Position numbers and translations under genes: made by a program. Below the pieces are notes generated by a model. That model made no database searches and was not told the DNA's origin. It saw only the letters and a list, made by a program, of their open reading frames with translations. Shown one piece after another: positions 9,901 to 17,067 of a DNA stretch of 45,066 nt (positions within the stretch are counted from its first letter, which is position 1; every line of letters begins with the position of its first letter). Location of the stretch: positions 1 to 45,066 of the forward strand of contig JACPPM010000330.1 in the NCBI GenBank assembly GCA_016191015.1. The letters run 5' to 3'. The DNA is from Acidobacteriota bacterium. GTDB lineage: Bacteria > Acidobacteriota > CAIWXX01.

Positions 9901-10557
9901 CTACCTCCAGAGATAGCTTTTGAGCTTCGTGAAGGCCCGGTCGACCTGCTTCTTCTCGAGAATCATCGTGAACTCGGTGTAGGTGGAAACAACCTCCACG
10001 ACATTGATGTTGTCCCAGGCGAGCTGCTTCATGATCGCGTAGTGGATGCCGGGAGTCGAGATCGATTTGGCCGGTAGCCTGAGCGTGATCGCGGACAGGT
10101 CGCCCACGCGCGAGATCATCTTCTCCCGCGCGAATACCTGCTTCACGACCTTCTCCAGGCTCGAGCTGACGATCACCGTGGTCTCGAAGACCCCTTGCGT
10201 GAATGTCATGAACTGATCGTGACTGACGGCGCTGTGATGGAGCAGCCGTTTTTGGCTTTCGAGGATCGTCGCCGAATTCAGGAACGTGAATTCCGTCAGA
10301 CTCGACCGCACCGTCATGTCGCCCATGCTCTTCAGGATCTTCCTGGTCTGCGACCCCCGGTCGGTCAGCTTCGGCGTCAGTCTCTTCAGGGCCATCACCA
10401 GAGCTGCATCGCTCACCTTCTTCCCCAGCTCGGCAGAAACGGCCGGCCGGATCTTCCGAGCGAGCGCGGAGAGGTTGATCAGGCCGGCCGCAAGTGCCTC
10501 CTCGAGCAGCGGAGACTCTTTGACGATTCGTTCCACGACCGCCGGAATCGTCAGCAT
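9901..10557 (-). CDS. ACT-domain protein divergent from the lysine operon
   Basis: This 218-residue protein has a helical N-terminal part (about 1-70) of a kind I do not recognise. The C-terminal half resembles the paired ACT domains of aspartate kinases: LSAITLRLPAKSISTPGI, then IMKQLAWDNINVVEVVSTY and TEFTMILEKKQVDRAFTKL. There is no kinase domain. ACT domains commonly bind amino acids. Because it is transcribed away from lysW across a 106-bp AT-rich region, it may sense lysine and control that operon, but no DNA-binding motif is obvious. No Shine-Dalgarno precedes the ATG, and a TTGACA/TAGATT pair close to it suggests a very short leader or leaderless start. Confidence 0.75.
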   Translation of the reverse strand: MLTIPAVVERIVKESPLLEEALAAGLINLSALARKIRPAVSAELGKKVSDAALVMALKRLTPKLTDRGSQTRKILKSMGDMTVRSSLTEFTFLNSATILESQKRLLHHSAVSHDQFMTFTQGVFETTVIVSSSLEKVVKQVFAREKMISRVGDLSAITLRLPAKSISTPGIHYAIMKQLAWDNINVVEVVSTYTEFTMILEKKQVDRAFTKLKSYLWR

Positions 10558-10663: not shown

Positions 10664-10849
10664 ATGACGATGATCGCAGTTGGAACTGCAGCGTGTCCTG
10701 TTTGCGATTCCCCCGTTTCGCTGGCCGCCGATCTGACGGAATCCGAGATCATCCGCTGTCCGGATTGCGGGAGCGAGCTGGAGGTGAGGAGCATGGAGCC
10801 GGCCGAGCTGGTCGAGGCTCCGGTCGAAGAGGAAGACTGGGGGCAGTAA
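10664..10849 (+). CDS. lysW: LysW-type amino-group carrier protein ending in glutamine
   Basis: LysW is a small zinc-binding carrier. LysX joins 2-aminoadipate to the side chain of its C-terminal Glu so that later intermediates stay protein-bound. This 61-residue copy has the two zinc knuckles CPVC (11-14) and CPDC (32-35), an acidic tail and the family ending EDWG. The last residue, however, is Gln (codon CAG before TAA at 10847-10849), whereas LysW/ArgW proteins normally end EDWGE. Without deamidation the usual attachment carboxylate would be blocked. Two in-frame ATGs (10664, 10670) follow AAGGAGG; the second has the better spacing and would shorten the protein by two residues. The homocitrate synthase ATG follows the stop directly. 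Confidence 0.93.
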   Translation: MTMIAVGTAACPVCDSPVSLAADLTESEIIRCPDCGSELEVRSMEPAELVEAPVEEEDWGQ

Positions 10850-12004
10850 ATGCTCAGAATCCTGGATAGCACGCTCCGGGAAGGCGAACAGACTCCGGGC
10901 GTCTACTTCGACGTCCACATCAAGATCGCGATCGCGGATCTTCTCGACTCGATCGGAATCGACATCATCGAGGCGGGTCACCCGGTAGTCACCGAGAACA
11001 TCCGTCAGGCTGTTGCCGGGATCGCCGCGAGAAACCTGAGCGCGCGAGTCGGGGCGCACGCGCGATCGATCGAGAGAGACGTCGACGTGGCCCTCGAGTG
11101 CGGGGTCGGCTTTCTGGGCATCTTCTACTGCGTCTCGGATGCGCGGTTGAGCCACCATTCCCAGAGTTTGCCACAGGCCATCGACCGCATCTCGCGCGTC
11201 ATCCGAATGGCCAGGGGCAAGCGGCCCGATCTTCTGATTCGCTACACGCCCGAAGACGCCGTCCGCTCTCCCTATGCGAATGTTCTGACGGCCGCGACCG
11301 AGGCGGTCCGGGCTGGAGCCGACATCATCAGCATCGCCGACACGACCGGCGTGATGATTCCCGGCTCCGAACGAAACATGTTCGACTACGTCAGTCGCCT
11401 GAAAGACGATTTGGCACGACGCGATCTCTTTCCCGACATCGCCGTCCATTGCCATAACGATCGAGGCCTCGCACTCGCCAATGCCCTCGACGCCTTCCGT
11501 GCCGGCGCATCGATCATCGACGCGACGGTCCTCGGGCTCGGCGAACGTGCGGGCATCGTGGACCTGGCCACCCTGCTGGCGGTTCTCGCGCACGATTTCC
11601 GCGTAGATCGCCAATGGAACCTTGTGCGAATCCCTGAGCTCTACGAGCTCGTCAGCAGGTATGCCCGGGTACCAATCCCGGTGAACCTGCCCGTCACCGG
11701 CAAGAACGCCTTTACGCACTGCGCCGGTGTACACACGCAGGCCGCGATGAAGAACCCGCTCCACTACCAAAGCCTCGACCCCGGCGTAGTCGGGCGGCAC
11801 TCTGAGGTATCCCTTGACCACATGTCCGGGATGGCTGCCCTGATGCACTGTCTGGAACAGATCGGCGAGATGGAGGTGGACGACGATCTGGCCGGCAAGG
11901 TGTTGAAGAAGGTCAAGGAGGTGGGCGAGACGGGGCGCACGGTCGATCTCCTCGAGTTGCGCTACATCGTCAAGTACCTCCGCGAGCACCGGGCGGCCGC
12001 CTAG
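10850..12004 (+). CDS. Homocitrate synthase (LysS/NifV family)
   Basis: The enzyme condenses 2-oxoglutarate with acetyl-CoA, the first step of the aminoadipate route to lysine. The 384-residue protein has the DRE-TIM signature [12 protein letters not shown] at the N-terminus and metal-binding His residues in [16 protein letters not shown]. It also has [16 protein letters not shown] and the C-terminal [16 protein letters not shown] segment typical of homocitrate synthases, while the long regulatory domain of isopropylmalate synthase is absent. The motif [11 protein letters not shown] replaces the RFS.ED form of Thermus homocitrate synthase. Its presence directly after lysW argues for lysine rather than arginine as the operon's product. 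The start codon abuts the lysW stop, so translation is probably coupled. Confidence 0.88.
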
Positions 12005-12020: not shown

Positions 12021-12911
12021 ATGTTGAAAATAGGATTTCTACACTCAGTGATCCGCAAGGACGAGAAGCTCCTGTTGGATGAGCTGCAATCAAGGCCGGG
12101 CATCGAGGTGGTGATGATCGATGACCGCATGCTCACGTTCACGCTCGGGCGGAACGGCTTTGGCGTGGACGTGGTTCTCGAGCGGAGCATCAACCACTCG
12201 CGTGCGCTCCACGCGCTTCGTCTCTTCGAAGCCGTCGGGATTCCGTGCGTGAATCAATCCCGGGTCGCCACGGTCTGCGGCGACAAGCTGCTCACCTCCG
12301 TCGCCCTTGCCGAGCACGGTGTCCCGCAACCGGAGGTTCGCGTGGCTTTCACCGAAGAGTCGGCACTCCAGGCAATCGAGGAGATGGGATATCCCGTGGT
12401 CCTGAAGCCGGCCGTCGGCTCATGGGGCAGGCTGCTGGCCAAAGTGAATGACCGCGACGCGGCCGAGGCGCTGCTCGAGCACAAGACAACCCTCGGCAGC
12501 TACCACCACTCCATCTTCTACATCCAGAAGTACATCGAAAAGCGCGGGCGGGACATCCGCGCGTTCGTGGTCGGCGACGAGTGCATCTGTGCGATCTATC
12601 GGACCTCACCGCATTGGATCACAAACACGGCGCGTGGGGGAGTCGCGAGCAACTGCCCAGTGACATCTGAGCTGAGTGAGATCGCGTTGCGCGGGGCGCG
12701 GGCTGTCGGGGGCGGAATCGTCGCCCTCGATATTTTCGAGACCCAGCAGGGCTACCTCATCAACGAGATCAACTACACGATGGAGTTCAAGAACAGCATC
12801 CAGCCTACCGGGGTGGACATCCCGAGAAAGATCGTGGACTACGTGCTCAGAGTAAGTCCAAGGCCCACGGTCCGAAATCGAAAGTCGACGCAGGCTCCCG
12901 TGGGTGCCTAG
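12021..12911 (+). CDS. lysX: LysX-type ATP-grasp ligase (LysW--aminoadipate ligase)
   Basis: This RimK/LysX-family ATP-grasp enzyme uses ATP to couple the amino group of 2-aminoadipate to the gamma-carboxyl of the LysW C-terminal Glu. The 296 residues show [17 protein letters not shown] (nucleotide-binding Lys and glycine loop), [17 protein letters not shown] and the metal and substrate region [14 protein letters not shown] near the C-terminus. A GGAGG precedes ATG 12021. A short basic tail after residue 275 is probably disordered. The neighbouring LysW ends in Gln, so this ligase would need a deamidated carrier, or would have to differ from its relatives. Substrate choice is inferred from the homocitrate synthase in the operon. 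Confidence 0.9.
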
Positions 12912-12917
12912 CGGATC

Positions 12918-13961
12918 ATGGATAAGGTGCGGGTTTCGATTGCGGGTGGGTCGGGGTACGGCGGAGGCGAGCTGCTGCGTCTCCTTCTGTTCCATCCTCA
13001 CGTCGAGGTCCTTCAGGCGACCTCGGAGCGGCACGCGGGGCAGCCTGTGTCGCGGGTGCATCCGAATCTCCGCAAGCAGACCCAGCTCCAGTTTGCGGCG
13101 CTAGCTGACCTGCAGCCGTGCGACCTGCTCTTCCTGGCCCTCCCGCACGGTGAGGCTGTGCGGCAGATCGATCACTTCATCTCCCTGGCACAGCGCATCG
13201 TGGACCTGAGCGCCGACTTCCGGTTGAAACGGCCCGAGGACTATCGTGAGTGGTACCATGCCGAGCATCCGCGCCCTGAGCTCTTGCACGAGTTCGTGTA
13301 CGGGATACCCGAAATCCATCGCGATCAAATGCGGACGGCGCGATTTGTCTCGAGCGCCGGGTGCAATGCCACGGCTGCGATTCTGGGGCTTTACCCCCTC
13401 TACAAGCACGACCTCGTGAGCGGCCCGGCCATTGTGGAGGTGATGGCCGGATCGAGCGAAGGGGGGAATGCCGCATCCGAATCTTCTCACCATCCCGAGC
13501 GCAGCAACTGCCTGCGTTCGTACAAGCCCACGGGCCACCGGCACGCGGCCGAGGTTTTGCAGGAACTGCCTGCGGGCGACGGGAGATCGATCCATTTCTC
13601 GGCCACTTCCGTCGACATGGTTCGTGGGATTCTCGCGACGATGCATGTCTTCCTGAAAGATGATCTCGAGGAACGCGAGGTCTGGAAGATCTATCGGCGC
13701 GCCTACGCGGATGAACCGTTCGTCAGGATCGTCAAGGAGCGCGACGGCAATTACCGATACCCTGAGCCGAAGCTGCTTGCGGGAACCAACTTCTGCGACA
13801 TCGGCTTCGAGCGCGAACGCGGGTCGAGGAGGCTGGTCGTGATGAGCGCGATCGACAATCTGATGAAAGGCGCCGCGGGCCAGGCCGTGCAGGCGTTCAA
13901 CATCATGCACGGCTTCCCTGAGAGGACAGGCCTCGAATTCCCGGGCCTGCATCCGATCTGA
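12918..13961 (+). CDS. lysY: LysY-type LysW-aminoadipyl-phosphate reductase (ArgC family)
   Basis: The enzyme reduces the LysW-bound acyl phosphate to the semialdehyde with NADPH. The 347 residues start with a Rossmann motif, VSIAGGSGYGGGELLRLL, and contain the active-site cysteine in SSAGCNATAAILGLYPL. GCNAT is the LysY-like form; classical acetylglutamyl-phosphate reductases usually have GCYPT. The LMKGAAGQAVQAFNIM segment near the C-terminus is also conserved in the family. It begins 7 bases after lysX, and the following amidotransferase-like gene begins one base after its stop. It is complete and of usual length. Confidence 0.92.
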   Translation: MDKVRVSIAGGSGYGGGELLRLLLFHPHVEVLQATSERHAGQPVSRVHPNLRKQTQLQFAALADLQPCDLLFLALPHGEAVRQIDHFISLAQRIVDLSADFRLKRPEDYREWYHAEHPRPELLHEFVYGIPEIHRDQMRTARFVSSAGCNATAAILGLYPLYKHDLVSGPAIVEVMAGSSEGGNAASESSHHPERSNCLRSYKPTGHRHAAEVLQELPAGDGRSIHFSATSVDMVRGILATMHVFLKDDLEEREVWKIYRRAYADEPFVRIVKERDGNYRYPEPKLLAGTNFCDIGFERERGSRRLVVMSAIDNLMKGAAGQAVQAFNIMHGFPERTGLEFPGLHPI

Positions 13962-13962
13962 T

Positions 13963-14601
13963 ATGTGCCGCCTGCTGTTGGTGAAGTCGAAGGCTCCGTT
14001 CGAGCCTCAGGAGCATCTTTCGTATTTCGCGGACGTCGCGCGCGGGAGCAAGGTGTATCAAGGGCACGGCTGGGGTTGCGCCTGGATCTCAGACGGGCGC
14101 TGGCATCTGTACCGGAGCGTCCGGCCGATCTGGGAGGACGACCTGATCCGTTTCGGTCCCACGCACTTTCTGATCGCCCACGCCCGCAGCGCCTTCAGGG
14201 ATGAAGGGATCGACGTGACGAACAACATGCCTTTCTCGGACGGCACGCATGTGTTCGTGTTCAACGGGGAGCTGCGCGGTGTGAGGATCCGGGAGGAGGG
14301 GCGGATCGGAGCGGAAAAGATCTTCAATTTCATCAGGCGGTTCGACCGCGGCGACATGGGGGCTGCCATTCTGCGAGGTGTCGGCGCGATCGAGGCACGC
14401 AGCGCCTCGGTCAGAGCCATGAACTTCATCGTGGCCGACAGCGACAGGGCGTACGTCAGCTCGCGGTTCACCGACGACCCCGAGTATTTCACGCTCCGAA
14501 TGAACCGCAACGGAAGGCGGGTCATTGTCTGTTCGGAGGAGTATCCGGCTTCGGCGCCGTGGACTCCGGTCAGAAACGGCTCGATCGAGGTGGTCCGATG
14601 A
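13963..14601 (+). CDS. Class II glutamine amidotransferase-like amidohydrolase (YafJ/EgtC type) in the lysine operon
   Basis: This 212-residue N-terminal nucleophile hydrolase starts Met-Cys-Arg (MCRLLLVKSK), so Met removal would leave Cys as catalytic N-terminus. Further family motifs are HGWGCAW, LIAHARSAF (substrate-carboxylate Arg), NNMPF (equivalent of N.HPF) and VFNGEL (oxyanion Asn-Gly). There is no synthase domain, so it is probably a hydrolase of gamma-glutamyl amides; EgtC is a characterised relative of that kind. It lies one base after lysY and originally overlapped lysZ by ATGA (see the element at 14602). Inferred roles are deamidating the C-terminal Gln of LysW, releasing lysine from LysW in place of the absent LysK, or both. 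None of these is proven. Confidence 0.88.
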   Translation: MCRLLLVKSKAPFEPQEHLSYFADVARGSKVYQGHGWGCAWISDGRWHLYRSVRPIWEDDLIRFGPTHFLIAHARSAFRDEGIDVTNNMPFSDGTHVFVFNGELRGVRIREEGRIGAEKIFNFIRRFDRGDMGAAILRGVGAIEARSASVRAMNFIVADSDRAYVSSRFTDDPEYFTLRMNRNGRRVIVCSEEYPASAPWTPVRNGSIEVVR

Positions 14602-14811
14602 TCGTAACTACTCAGGTGGCCTAGAAACTGAAGTGGGATTCACCGCAGAGGCGCTGAAGAGGGCAGAATTGGCGGATGGACCGTTGGCTTTGGCTGCTCA
14701 ATTTGAATGTGCCGGTTCTCAAGGACGGAATCAAGAAAGACATCTCCGCGTCCTCTGCGTCTCTGCGGTGAGAGGAAGGGCCCTCATTGCGCAAGAGCTG
14801 AGTAGTTACCA
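14602..14811. mobile_element. 210-bp MITE-like element with terminal inverted repeats and 4-bp target duplication
   Basis: The ends are 14-base inverted repeats (14602-14615 and 14798-14811) that match at 13 positions; the core GTAACTACTCAG/CTGAGTAGTTAC is perfect. ATGA flanks it on both sides (14598-14601 and 14812-14815) and fits a target duplication. A second, inner inverted repeat (CACCGCAGAG near 14641; CTCTGCGGTG near 14762-14771) resembles dispersed repeats seen in many environmental genomes. It encodes no transposase, so it would be moved in trans. Removing it and one ATGA leaves an ATGA overlap of the amidotransferase-like stop and the lysZ start. It contributes no obvious ribosome site for lysZ. 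Confidence 0.75.
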
Positions 14812-15666
14812 ATGATCCTGATCAAGATCGGCGGGGGCGCCGGCATCAACCTGAAGGGGATCGCCGCCGATCTCGGTCAGCTTCGCGCGCCCTTCATCAT
14901 CATCCATGGCGCCAATGCTGCGCGCGACGATCTTGCGGAAAGGCTGGGGTTGAGCAAGAGGGTCGTCACGTCGGTCTCAGGCTACTCCAGCGTCTTCTCC
15001 GATCCCGATGCGATCGACCTGCTGATGATGGCGTACGCGGGACTCCGCAACAAGCGCATCGTCGAGCTCTGTCAACAGCACGGCATCAACGCCGTGGGCC
15101 TCACCGGCCTCGATGGCCGCCTCATCCAGGGACGAAGGAACCGCGGTGTCCGGGTGCGCGAAGAGGGGCGGACGAAAATCGTGCGAGATCTGTCGGGCAA
15201 GCCCGAACGGATCAACGTCAGTCTGCTGCAGACTCTGATGGACGCCGGTTACGCGCCTGTCCTGACCGTCCCGATCATCGATGAGACAGCTTCGGCGATC
15301 AACTCGGAGAACGACGACATCACCGCCCTTGTGGCGCGCGAGACGGGAGCCGACCTCGTGCTGCAGCTCATCGAGGCGCCGGGGTTCATGAGAGACGTCA
15401 GGGACCCGTCGTCCCTGATTCCGCATCTCAGCCCTGAGGACATCTCGGACTGGGAGATGCGCGCTGAGGGACGGATCAAACGGAAGCTGCACGCGCTGAG
15501 GAAGCTTCTGGAGTCCGGTGCGCGGTCGGTTGTCATCGCCGATGGGCGGCGAGAACGGCCGGTGCTTGATGCGTTGGACGGCCTGGGGACTCGCGTGGGA
15601 GATGATCACTCGCGAGACTTGCGGGGGATCCTTCGTCAGCCGCCGGTGGCGGCCACCACGGGTTGA
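14812..15666 (+). CDS. lysZ: LysZ-type LysW-aminoadipate kinase (ArgB family)
   Basis: This amino acid kinase phosphorylates the side-chain carboxylate of LysW-bound aminoadipate. The 284 residues begin with the nucleotide-binding MILIKIGGGAGIN and include IIIHGANAARDDLAERLG, the substrate loop GLTGLDGRLIQG and the INSENDDITALVARETGAD motif that corresponds to the ArgB-type NADD.A..VA.. segment. The start is immediately right of the inserted element, and its ATGA is the presumed target duplication. No Shine-Dalgarno is visible, so translation may have become weaker since the insertion. It is of normal family length. Confidence 0.92.
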   Translation: MILIKIGGGAGINLKGIAADLGQLRAPFIIIHGANAARDDLAERLGLSKRVVTSVSGYSSVFSDPDAIDLLMMAYAGLRNKRIVELCQQHGINAVGLTGLDGRLIQGRRNRGVRVREEGRTKIVRDLSGKPERINVSLLQTLMDAGYAPVLTVPIIDETASAINSENDDITALVARETGADLVLQLIEAPGFMRDVRDPSSLIPHLSPEDISDWEMRAEGRIKRKLHALRKLLESGARSVVIADGRRERPVLDALDGLGTRVGDDHSRDLRGILRQPPVAATTG

Positions 15667-15706: not shown

Positions 15707-15832
15707 AGCCACAAAATGCACAGAAGTCACAGAGACGGGTCAGGCTCAAAGGCGGTTTGCCGCACAGTGTCGCAAATGCTCAGATTCTCTGGGTCGTTTT
15801 TTCCTTTTGGGCCTTTTGTGCTTTTTGTGGCT
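15707..15832. repeat. Dispersed inverted-repeat element between lysZ and lysJ
   Basis: About 20 bases at 15707-15726 (AGCCACAAAATGCACAGAAG) match the reverse complement of 15812-15832 at 18 positions. The bases between do not look coding and include a T-run at 15796-15802. No clear target duplication is visible. The form (AGCCACAAAA...TTTTGTGGCT) resembles dispersed palindromic repeats of environmental bacteria. It could fold in RNA and slow or partly end transcription before lysJ, which then has its own good ribosome site. Confidence 0.6.
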
Positions 15833-15885: not shown

Positions 15886-17067
15886 GTGGAAAACAGCATG
15901 ATCTCTGAAGTCGGGTTGGCCGAGCGGAGTTGTCAGGTGGACACGTATCTGAACCGGCGGCTGGAGCTCGTGCGCGGCGAAGGCGTGTATCTCTACACGG
16001 CTGCGGGCGAACGGTATCTCGACATGATGAGCAACTACGGGGTGAACATCCTCGGTTACGGCCACCCTGCGGTGACTCGCGCGCTCACGGCACAGATCTC
16101 CCATCTGCCCGCGCTCCATTGCAGCTTCAACAACGATGTGCGTGCCGCTGCGAGCAGGGCACTGATCGATCGGCTCGGGGGCAGCTACCGCAGGCTCTAC
16201 TGGTCCAACTCAGGGGCCGAAGCCATTGAGGCGGCGCTCAAGTTCGCCGTCCTCGCAACCGGGCGGAAGCGGTTCATCGCCTGTCGCGACGGGTATCACG
16301 GCAAGACTCTCGGCGCGCTCTCCGCGACCCACGGAAGCAAGTACCGAGCCGCGTTCGAGCCGCTTCTTTGGGAGTTCTGTCACATCGATTTCGGATCTGC
16401 GGAAGCGCTCGAATCCGCGATCGACGATGAGACAGCCGCATTTCTCGTCGAGCCGATTCAGGGCGAGAGCGGCGTTCTCATACCCGACGCCACCTACCTG
16501 CGCGCAGTGCGGGAGATCTGCGACCGCACGGGAGTCCTGCTGATTCTGGACGAGATACAAACGGGAGCCGGCAGAACCGGCACGTTCCTGGCTTCGCGGC
16601 ATTCCGGCGTCGATGGAGACATCGTGTGTCTGGGAAAAGGGATCGCAGGCGGAGTGCCCATCGGAATCACGGCGACGACGGCGGAGGTGGCCGATCGGAT
16701 CGGCAGGTCCGCACACACCTCGACATTCGGCGGCAACCCGCTTGCCTGCGCCGGCGTCCTCGCCGTTCTCGGCGTGCTGGACGACTCCTTCCTAGCGGAA
16801 GTCGCGGCGAAAGGCCGCGTATTCATGGAGCGCCTGAGCGAGCTCGACTCTCCTCTGGTCAAGGCTGTCCGCGGATCAGGACTGATGATCGGAGTCGAGG
16901 TCTTCTCCAAGCGCAACGAGATCCTGCAGAGTCTCCAGAGGGCTCGAATCCTGACGATCCCAGCCGGCGAGAACGTCGTCCGGTTCCTGCCGCCGTATGT
17001 CATTGACGAGGCACACCTCGAATCGGTAGTCGAGACACTGAACCGAACTTCTCCCTGGCGCCGCTGA
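15886..17067 (+). CDS. lysJ: LysJ-type LysW-aminoadipate-semialdehyde aminotransferase
   Basis: This PLP-dependent class III aminotransferase (ArgD/LysJ family) aminates the LysW-bound semialdehyde to LysW-lysine. Its 393 residues contain YWSNSGAEAIEAALKFA (phosphate binding), YHGKTLGALSATHG, LVEPIQGESGV, LILDEIQTGAGRTG and the PLP-binding Lys in VCLGKGIAGGVPIG, then HTSTFGGNPLACA. The start could be GTG 15886 or ATG 15898; GGAAGGA lies upstream of both. It closes the visible operon. The final enzyme, LysK (LysW-lysine hydrolase), and the aconitase-like and dehydrogenase enzymes of the upper pathway are not in this window. Confidence 0.92.
   Translation: MENSMISEVGLAERSCQVDTYLNRRLELVRGEGVYLYTAAGERYLDMMSNYGVNILGYGHPAVTRALTAQISHLPALHCSFNNDVRAAASRALIDRLGGSYRRLYWSNSGAEAIEAALKFAVLATGRKRFIACRDGYHGKTLGALSATHGSKYRAAFEPLLWEFCHIDFGSAEALESAIDDETAAFLVEPIQGESGVLIPDATYLRAVREICDRTGVLLILDEIQTGAGRTGTFLASRHSGVDGDIVCLGKGIAGGVPIGITATTAEVADRIGRSAHTSTFGGNPLACAGVLAVLGVLDDSFLAEVAAKGRVFMERLSELDSPLVKAVRGSGLMIGVEVFSKRNEILQSLQRARILTIPAGENVVRFLPPYVIDEAHLESVVETLNRTSPWRR

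Follow-up and report, generated by a model that had tools for sequence, protein, structure and literature searches.

A candidate Cys-type Ntn amidohydrolase encoded within LysW operons that may act on the LysW C terminus in place of LysK

The stretch of DNA analyzed here (the window) comprises 45,066 nucleotides of contig JACPPM010000330.1 from an Acidobacteriota bacterium (assembly GCA_016191015.1) and carries a LysW-type operon whose genes all lie on the plus strand in the order lysW-hcs-lysX-lysY-NTN-lysZ-lysJ. The first gene (10664..10849, +) encodes a LysW-type amino-group carrier protein that scores 59.3 bits against PF21344 (Zn_ribbon_LysW; cut-off 27) and falls short of the TIGR01206 equivalog cut-off for LysW (47.0 versus 53.2 bits). 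The homocitrate synthase-like gene that follows (10850..12004, +) belongs to the HMGL family (homocitrate/isopropylmalate synthase family; PF00682, PF22617), scores 326.6 bits against TIGR02146, below the cut-off of 413.6, and probably provides step one of the AAA route. LysX, the ATP-grasp ligase that loads substrate onto LysW (12021..12911, +), is well above threshold (TIGR02144, 348 bits; cut-off 275.6) and contains the GSWGR motif. Downstream are a LysY/ArgC-type reductase (12918..13961, +; TIGR01850, 399.7 bits), the gene termed NTN here (13963..14601, +), the [LysW]-aminoadipate kinase LysZ (14812..15666, +; NF010659, 254.8 bits; cut-off 223), and a LysJ/ArgD-type class III aminotransferase (15886..17067, +; PF00202; NF042418, 346.7 bits, below cut-off). 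The start of NTN lies 1 nucleotide beyond the lysY stop. Its open reading frame is intact and encodes a 212-residue candidate Cys-Ntn hydrolase of class II glutamine amidotransferase fold with the motifs MCRLLLV, AHARSA and FNGEL, which bears out the first-pass description of a standalone class II glutamine amidotransferase-like gene between lysY and lysZ.

Between NTN and lysZ is a MITE-like dispersed repeat (14602..14811, assigned to neither strand) with perfect 12-nucleotide terminal inverted repeats, GTAACTACTCAG/CTGAGTAGTTAC. It matches 48 places in its own genome, itself included, among them ∼10 long copies with 79-88% identity, and it is no part of the LysW/NTN system. In the gap separating lysZ from lysJ is a second inverted-repeat element (15707-15832), its 25-nucleotide arms showing 84% complementarity. 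Divergent from lysW is a gene for a 218-residue protein (9901-10557, −) whose C-terminal part weakly resembles the C-terminal (ACT) region of aspartate kinase and which is possibly a regulator. Several LysX/RimK-like ATP-grasp matches are also clustered in the genome of the window (G000:C133:317-6083), and like clusters occur in G218, G234, G274 and G290.

In the Thermus, Sulfolobus, Thermococcus and Natrinema systems, product release from the carrier is assigned to LysK/ArgE. The LysW/ArgW proteins of these organisms have EDWGE-type C termini, LysX links the amine of the substrate to the γ-carboxyl group of the C-terminal Glu, and the GSWGR motif of LysX is reported to recognize the EDWGE tail (PMC10433800). 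The carrier encoded in the window ends in EDWGQ rather than EDWGE (GAA GAC TGG GGG CAG TAA; pattern match at 10832-10849), the CAG codon for the terminal Gln (10844..10846, +) being one base from GAG (Glu). Since LysX needs a terminal carboxylate, something in Gln-ending lineages must make it, and NTN is the sole candidate linked to the Gln-ending state.

Sequence profiles place NTN at the margin of established families: Pfam GATase_6 gives a weak match of 20.9 bits against a cut-off of 27, and the NCBIfam EgtC cut-off (TIGR03442) is missed by a wide margin (52.7 versus 218.65 bits). AlphaFold2 predicts the structure with high confidence (pLDDT 94.9, pTM 0.92), and the best Protein Data Bank matches to this model by Foldseek are the EgtC structures 4zfl and 4zfj (E 1e-13, TM 0.80, 21-23% identity), followed by 3mdn, 1te5 and the glutaminase domains of PurF and GlmS. 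A Foldseek probability of 1.00 against EgtC and the PurF and GlmS glutaminase domains indicates the four-layer Ntn fold, with which sequence-profile comparison is consistent. That the nearest solved structure is a γ-glutamyl amidohydrolase agrees with the chemistry anticipated in the first-pass annotation, hydrolysis of a γ-glutamyl amide.

Alignment of 89 family members revealed a Cys2 directly after the initiator Met in every sequence, along with invariant Arg75, Asn101 and Gly102 (89/89), which correspond to the substrate Arg and the oxyanion Asn-Gly pair of class II glutamine amidotransferases. Four differences from YafJ/EgtC-like outgroups lie near the active-site motifs, namely Asp to His35 (84/89), HPF to MPF (His to Met89; 87/89), HNG to FNG (His to Phe100; 89/89) and TDSE to IGAE (Asp to Gly116; 89/89); Lys119 is almost invariant, and 3mdn retains both HNG and TDSE. 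No alignment column was found that cleanly splits lineages with Gln-ending LysW from those with Glu-ending LysW. The last of the four differences removes the Asp with which free-glutamine amidotransferases, through their S/T-D-T/S-E motif, bind the free α-amine. In GlmS the residue corresponding to Gly116 of NTN is Asp123, which binds the α-ammonium group of glutamine. In the LysW tail the α-nitrogen of the last residue is part of a peptide bond, so a loss of charge and a roomy Gly116 would be expected of a hydrolase acting on it; judged from these residues, the invariant Gly116 would fit a substrate that is a protein C terminus.

In the phylum of the window, 9 of 297 genomes encode a clear NTN relative (E below 1e-10), in all nine cases within a LysW operon. 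When 84,980 species genomes were scanned with the family alignment, the 80 best matches corresponded to 80 loci, at every one of which lysX, lysY, lysZ or lysJ adjoins NTN, usually in the order W-(HCS)-X-Y-NTN-Z-J. Because this placement is kept at 80 other species-level loci, that seen in the window is not due to chance. The loci include representatives of Gammaproteobacteria, Acidobacteria, Calditrichota, KSB1, Ignavibacteria, Melioribacter, Binatia, "Deltaproteobacteria," Phycisphaerae, Gemmatimonadota, Aminicenantes and the archaeon GW2011_AR15 (AR15), the majority of the genomes being MAGs. NTN is thus a standing member of the pathway in many bacterial phyla and one archaeon.

On a divergent branch of the family (G295, G063 and G605) the gene follows lysJ instead of lying between lysY and lysZ. 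Loci L030, L031 and L299 carry a divergent NTN (∼29-37% identity) after lysJ, together with a Glu-ending LysW. L067 (10001-13547), which belongs to a chromosome record of 5.7 Mb, and its relatives L063, L066 and L068 have LysX (where detected), LysY and NTN, with no lysZ or lysJ following NTN.

LysK, scored with the M20 family profile TIGR01902, is absent above cut-off from the whole genome of the window (best M20 match 57.8 versus 163.1 bits), and neither LysK nor another gene for release was found in the NTN operons. LysX exceeds its cut-off in 34 of the 297 phylum genomes; 23 of these have LysK over cut-off, nine have NTN, none has both and two have neither. This exclusion is significant by Fisher test (p 1e-6 by genome; 0.002 with families counted once). 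It extends to 35 further NTN genomes, also without LysK over cut-off, which brings the total to 0 of 44, and the absence of LysK noted in the first pass from the window alone is upheld on this wider scale. The two genomes with LysX and neither enzyme over cut-off (G073 and G130) were considered as counter-examples and set aside, as their operons lie at or near a contig end and break after lysY; the LysX of G073, moreover, groups with LysK lineages. Only two changes between the NTN and LysK states were found on the LysX tree, and the exclusion, consistent as it is, therefore rests on few independent evolutionary events.

M20 relatives below threshold (ArgE/DapE-like), which are possible product releasers, occur in most NTN genomes. 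The exception is AR15, the record of which is a single 1.16-Mb chromosome with an unbroken ten-gene AAA-lysine operon, lysW-hcs-lysT-lysU-hicdh-lysX-lysY-NTN-lysZ-lysJ (lysT-, lysU- and hicdh-like genes included). No M20-family match of any kind was obtained from this chromosome with a profile that was positive in 12 of 14 control genomes, which leaves the release step there with no evident candidate other than NTN. The AR15 homocitrate synthase (L107, 3987-5375) also has a match to the LysM regulator in its C-terminal region (residues 375-455, NF040947), and this similarity suggests built-in lysine sensing.

The Gln ending of LysW is itself associated with NTN. In the 297-genome sample it was found in five of the nine NTN genomes and in none of the 23 LysK genomes (p 6e-4), all 23 of which have a Glu-ending LysW. 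A wider pattern search covering 396 genomes added one genuine Gln ending, also accompanied by NTN (G647), and within the phylum NTN accompanies all six genuine Gln-ending LysW proteins. Three other hits, two from the phylum (G185 and G241) and one from another class (G485), were rejected as chance pattern matches, having no LysW or lys genes around them. The class around G319 (245 genomes) contains 23 genuine LysW proteins, five Gln-ending and 18 Glu-ending. All three Gln-ending operons that are complete have NTN; in the other two the contig ends ahead of the place where NTN would lie. Every operon of this class that is complete on its contig, Glu-ending ones included, carries NTN. The link from Gln ending to NTN rests on these two samples, the phylum and the G319 class, neither of which was selected by NTN.

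The converse is not found. LysW is readable at 57 of the 80 scan loci, with 10 Gln and 47 Glu endings. The co-occurrence envisaged in the first-pass annotation thus stands in one direction, in that Gln endings come with NTN (6/6, and 3/3 in complete operons) and with none of 23 LysK genomes; it does not hold in the other, as NTN is mostly paired with a Glu ending, and so the Gln ending does not define the module. At least 13 switches between Glu and Gln were counted on the LysX tree, on which all LysK rows are Glu. LysK lineages account for ∼18% of the branch length, and the chance of none of 13 switches falling there is ∼0.08, so that the absence of Gln from LysK lineages on this tree is no more than suggestive. 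As NTN persists whichever residue LysW ends in, its core role should be one required with either ending, which points to release.

With regard to the pathway product, neither a DAP decarboxylase (lysA) nor an ArgJ homologue was found in the genome of the window. These absences, together with the homocitrate synthase-like gene of the operon, make lysine the likely product; ornithine is a possible second one. The LysX signature motif for AAA/Glu specificity was given no weight in this assignment, its exact register being uncertain. In several other NTN genomes, among them that of Candidatus Thioglobus MED-G25 (G315), lysA and argJ are both retained, so the product is perhaps not always lysine or arginine. 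Loci L105 (Candidatus Thioglobus MED-G25), L092 and L139 (both Binatia) and L127 have the arrangement W-X-Y-NTN-Z-J in an operon without homocitrate synthase, in genomes that also have lysA and argJ, and the LysW module at these four loci may serve another product. In lineages with full DAP-lysine and acetyl-arginine routes, the NTN module may more generally make a different amino acid.

In the model that best explains these observations, NTN works as an N-terminal-nucleophile amidohydrolase of the Cys type whose target is the LysW C terminus. Once the initiator Met has been removed, Cys2 would attack the γ-carbonyl of the C-terminal glutamyl residue, with Arg75 holding the free α-carboxylate and Asn101-Gly102 forming the oxyanion hole. 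The resulting glutamyl thioester on LysW would then be hydrolyzed to yield LysW-Glu. If the nitrogen of the amide is that of a completed lysine (or ornithine), this step would constitute product release and stand in for the metallopeptidase LysK; if it comes from the side chain of a C-terminal Gln, inert LysW-Gln would become LysW-Glu that LysX can load. With a deamidating activity of this kind, NTN lineages could tolerate either GAR or CAR as the last codon and drift from one to the other, much as Dop allows for Pup.

Several other roles for NTN were weighed against this model. Were NTN only a deamidase of LysW-Gln, with an ordinary M20 deacylase (ArgE/DapE-like) encoded elsewhere releasing the product, its constant company with Gln-ending LysW and the frequency of M20 proteins below threshold in NTN genomes would both be explained. 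The 47 of 57 readable operons from the scan that are already Glu-ending would, however, offer nothing to deamidate; NTN is nevertheless present in all complete Glu-ending operons of the sampled G319 class, and AR15 combines a Glu ending and NTN with zero M20 matches. We give this reading a slim chance. The opposite restriction, in which NTN serves release alone and deamidation of LysW-Gln is spontaneous or the work of a different enzyme, or its Gln is used in some other way, is unlikely but carries rather more weight, as NTN is equally constant in operons of either ending and the alignment holds no column that separates the two groups. Against it, the attachment of substrate by LysX to the γ-carboxyl of a terminal Glu (PMC10433800) requires some source of that group, each Gln ending came with NTN wherever the contig continues, and both chemistries are possible in one active site.

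Because NTN shares its fold with class II glutamine amidotransferases, it might instead be a stand-alone glutaminase supplying ammonia or glutamate to a neighboring step, or a small-molecule hydrolase of the YafJ/EgtC kind, incidental in the operon. The replacement of the TDSE Asp by Gly in 89 of 89 sequences and of the HNG His by Phe argues otherwise, since YafJ/EgtC-like outgroups and 3mdn keep both; the operon, moreover, lacks any conserved ammonia-using enzyme, and all 80 matches fall within LysW operons, which makes this reading quite improbable. Least credible is a role in editing or recycling misloaded LysW (e.g. LysW-Glu-Glu) with release achieved by other means. A carrier amidohydrolase would be capable of such proofreading, but AR15 would be left without a release enzyme and the exclusion of LysK would stay unexplained, and we regard it as very improbable.

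We therefore return to the model in which NTN both releases the product and deamidates LysW-Gln, each on the LysW C terminus, in replacement of LysK, and consider it fairly likely. Taken by itself, the release role has genomic support that warrants good confidence; the additional deamidation, which would concern only lineages with Gln-ending LysW, is favored by a modest measure. Release is probably what NTN chiefly does, with deamidation as an additional, permitted activity. The initial proposal of deamidation and/or release accordingly withstood the genomic comparisons, with release the better supported half, and gave up the Gln ending as the mark of the module. NTN is probably a widely distributed stand-in for LysK, unrelated to it, and broader in scope than first envisaged. 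We regard as evenly balanced the larger proposition that one Cys-Ntn enzyme replaced LysK in numerous bacterial phyla and in one or more archaea, both activating the carrier (LysW-Gln to LysW-Glu) and releasing the product, an unrelated parallel to Dop/Pup that would have left the terminal residue of the carrier free to change between Glu and Gln on at least 13 occasions.

If the model is right, the missing release step of LysW-dependent lysine biosynthesis would be filled in many uncultured lineages, where NTN is currently annotated only as "glutamine amidotransferase," and auxotrophy predictions for several phyla would be corrected. The Ntn amidohydrolases with a protein C terminus as substrate would also gain a family, and it would become clear how a pathway can retain a carrier when the gene specifies an inactive form of the attachment residue. 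In Caldithrix abyssi, LysWXZYJ and Hcs are described in one locus of eight locus tags; LysK or an amidotransferase is not named, and other pathway proteins are left open (PMC5317091). Undefined genes in a LysW pathway are suspected in a study of Thermoflexus (PMC8129789). Searches of openly accessible papers that paired LysW with LysK, with glutamine amidotransferases or with arginine found no description of an amidotransferase-like enzyme in the LysW release role.

The window shares with the canonical LysW route its carrier, ligase, kinase, reductase and transaminase; it differs by the lack of LysK, the presence of NTN and a Gln-ending carrier, an ending that recurs in many scattered lineages. 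LysK (the [LysW]-lysine/ornithine hydrolase of the M20 family; Thermus and Sulfolobus) and NTN share the proposed step, hydrolysis of a LysW-γ-glutamyl amide, and an operon context in which each replaces the other. By contrast, LysK is a metal peptidase of different fold encoded after lysJ, whereas NTN has an N-terminal Cys nucleophile and is encoded between lysY and lysZ (after lysJ on the divergent branch).

EgtC of ergothioneine biosynthesis is a γ-glutamyl amidohydrolase with no ammonia transfer. It offers the nearest solved fold to NTN, the same MCR start, and a reaction, γ-glutamyl amide hydrolysis without amide transfer, of the kind proposed for NTN. EgtC, however, keeps HNG and acts on a small-molecule substrate with a free glutamyl α-amine, whereas NTN has FNG, IGAE and MPF, is only 21-23% identical and occurs in LysW operons.

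Dop is both a depupylase, cleaving the γ-glutamyl isopeptide bond to lysine, and a deamidase of Pup-Gln, Pup ending in Glu or Gln depending on the species. The analogy to NTN as proposed is that of one enzyme for C-terminal Gln deamidation and γ-glutamyl cleavage on a small carrier or tag. Dop has a glutamine synthetase fold, depends on ATP/Mg and has no homology to the Ntn-fold NTN, for which the amine released would be the α-amine of a free amino acid. The NTN module is thus a variant of the LysW pathway in which NTN would function like LysK and, by analogy, like Dop, while belonging to neither family.
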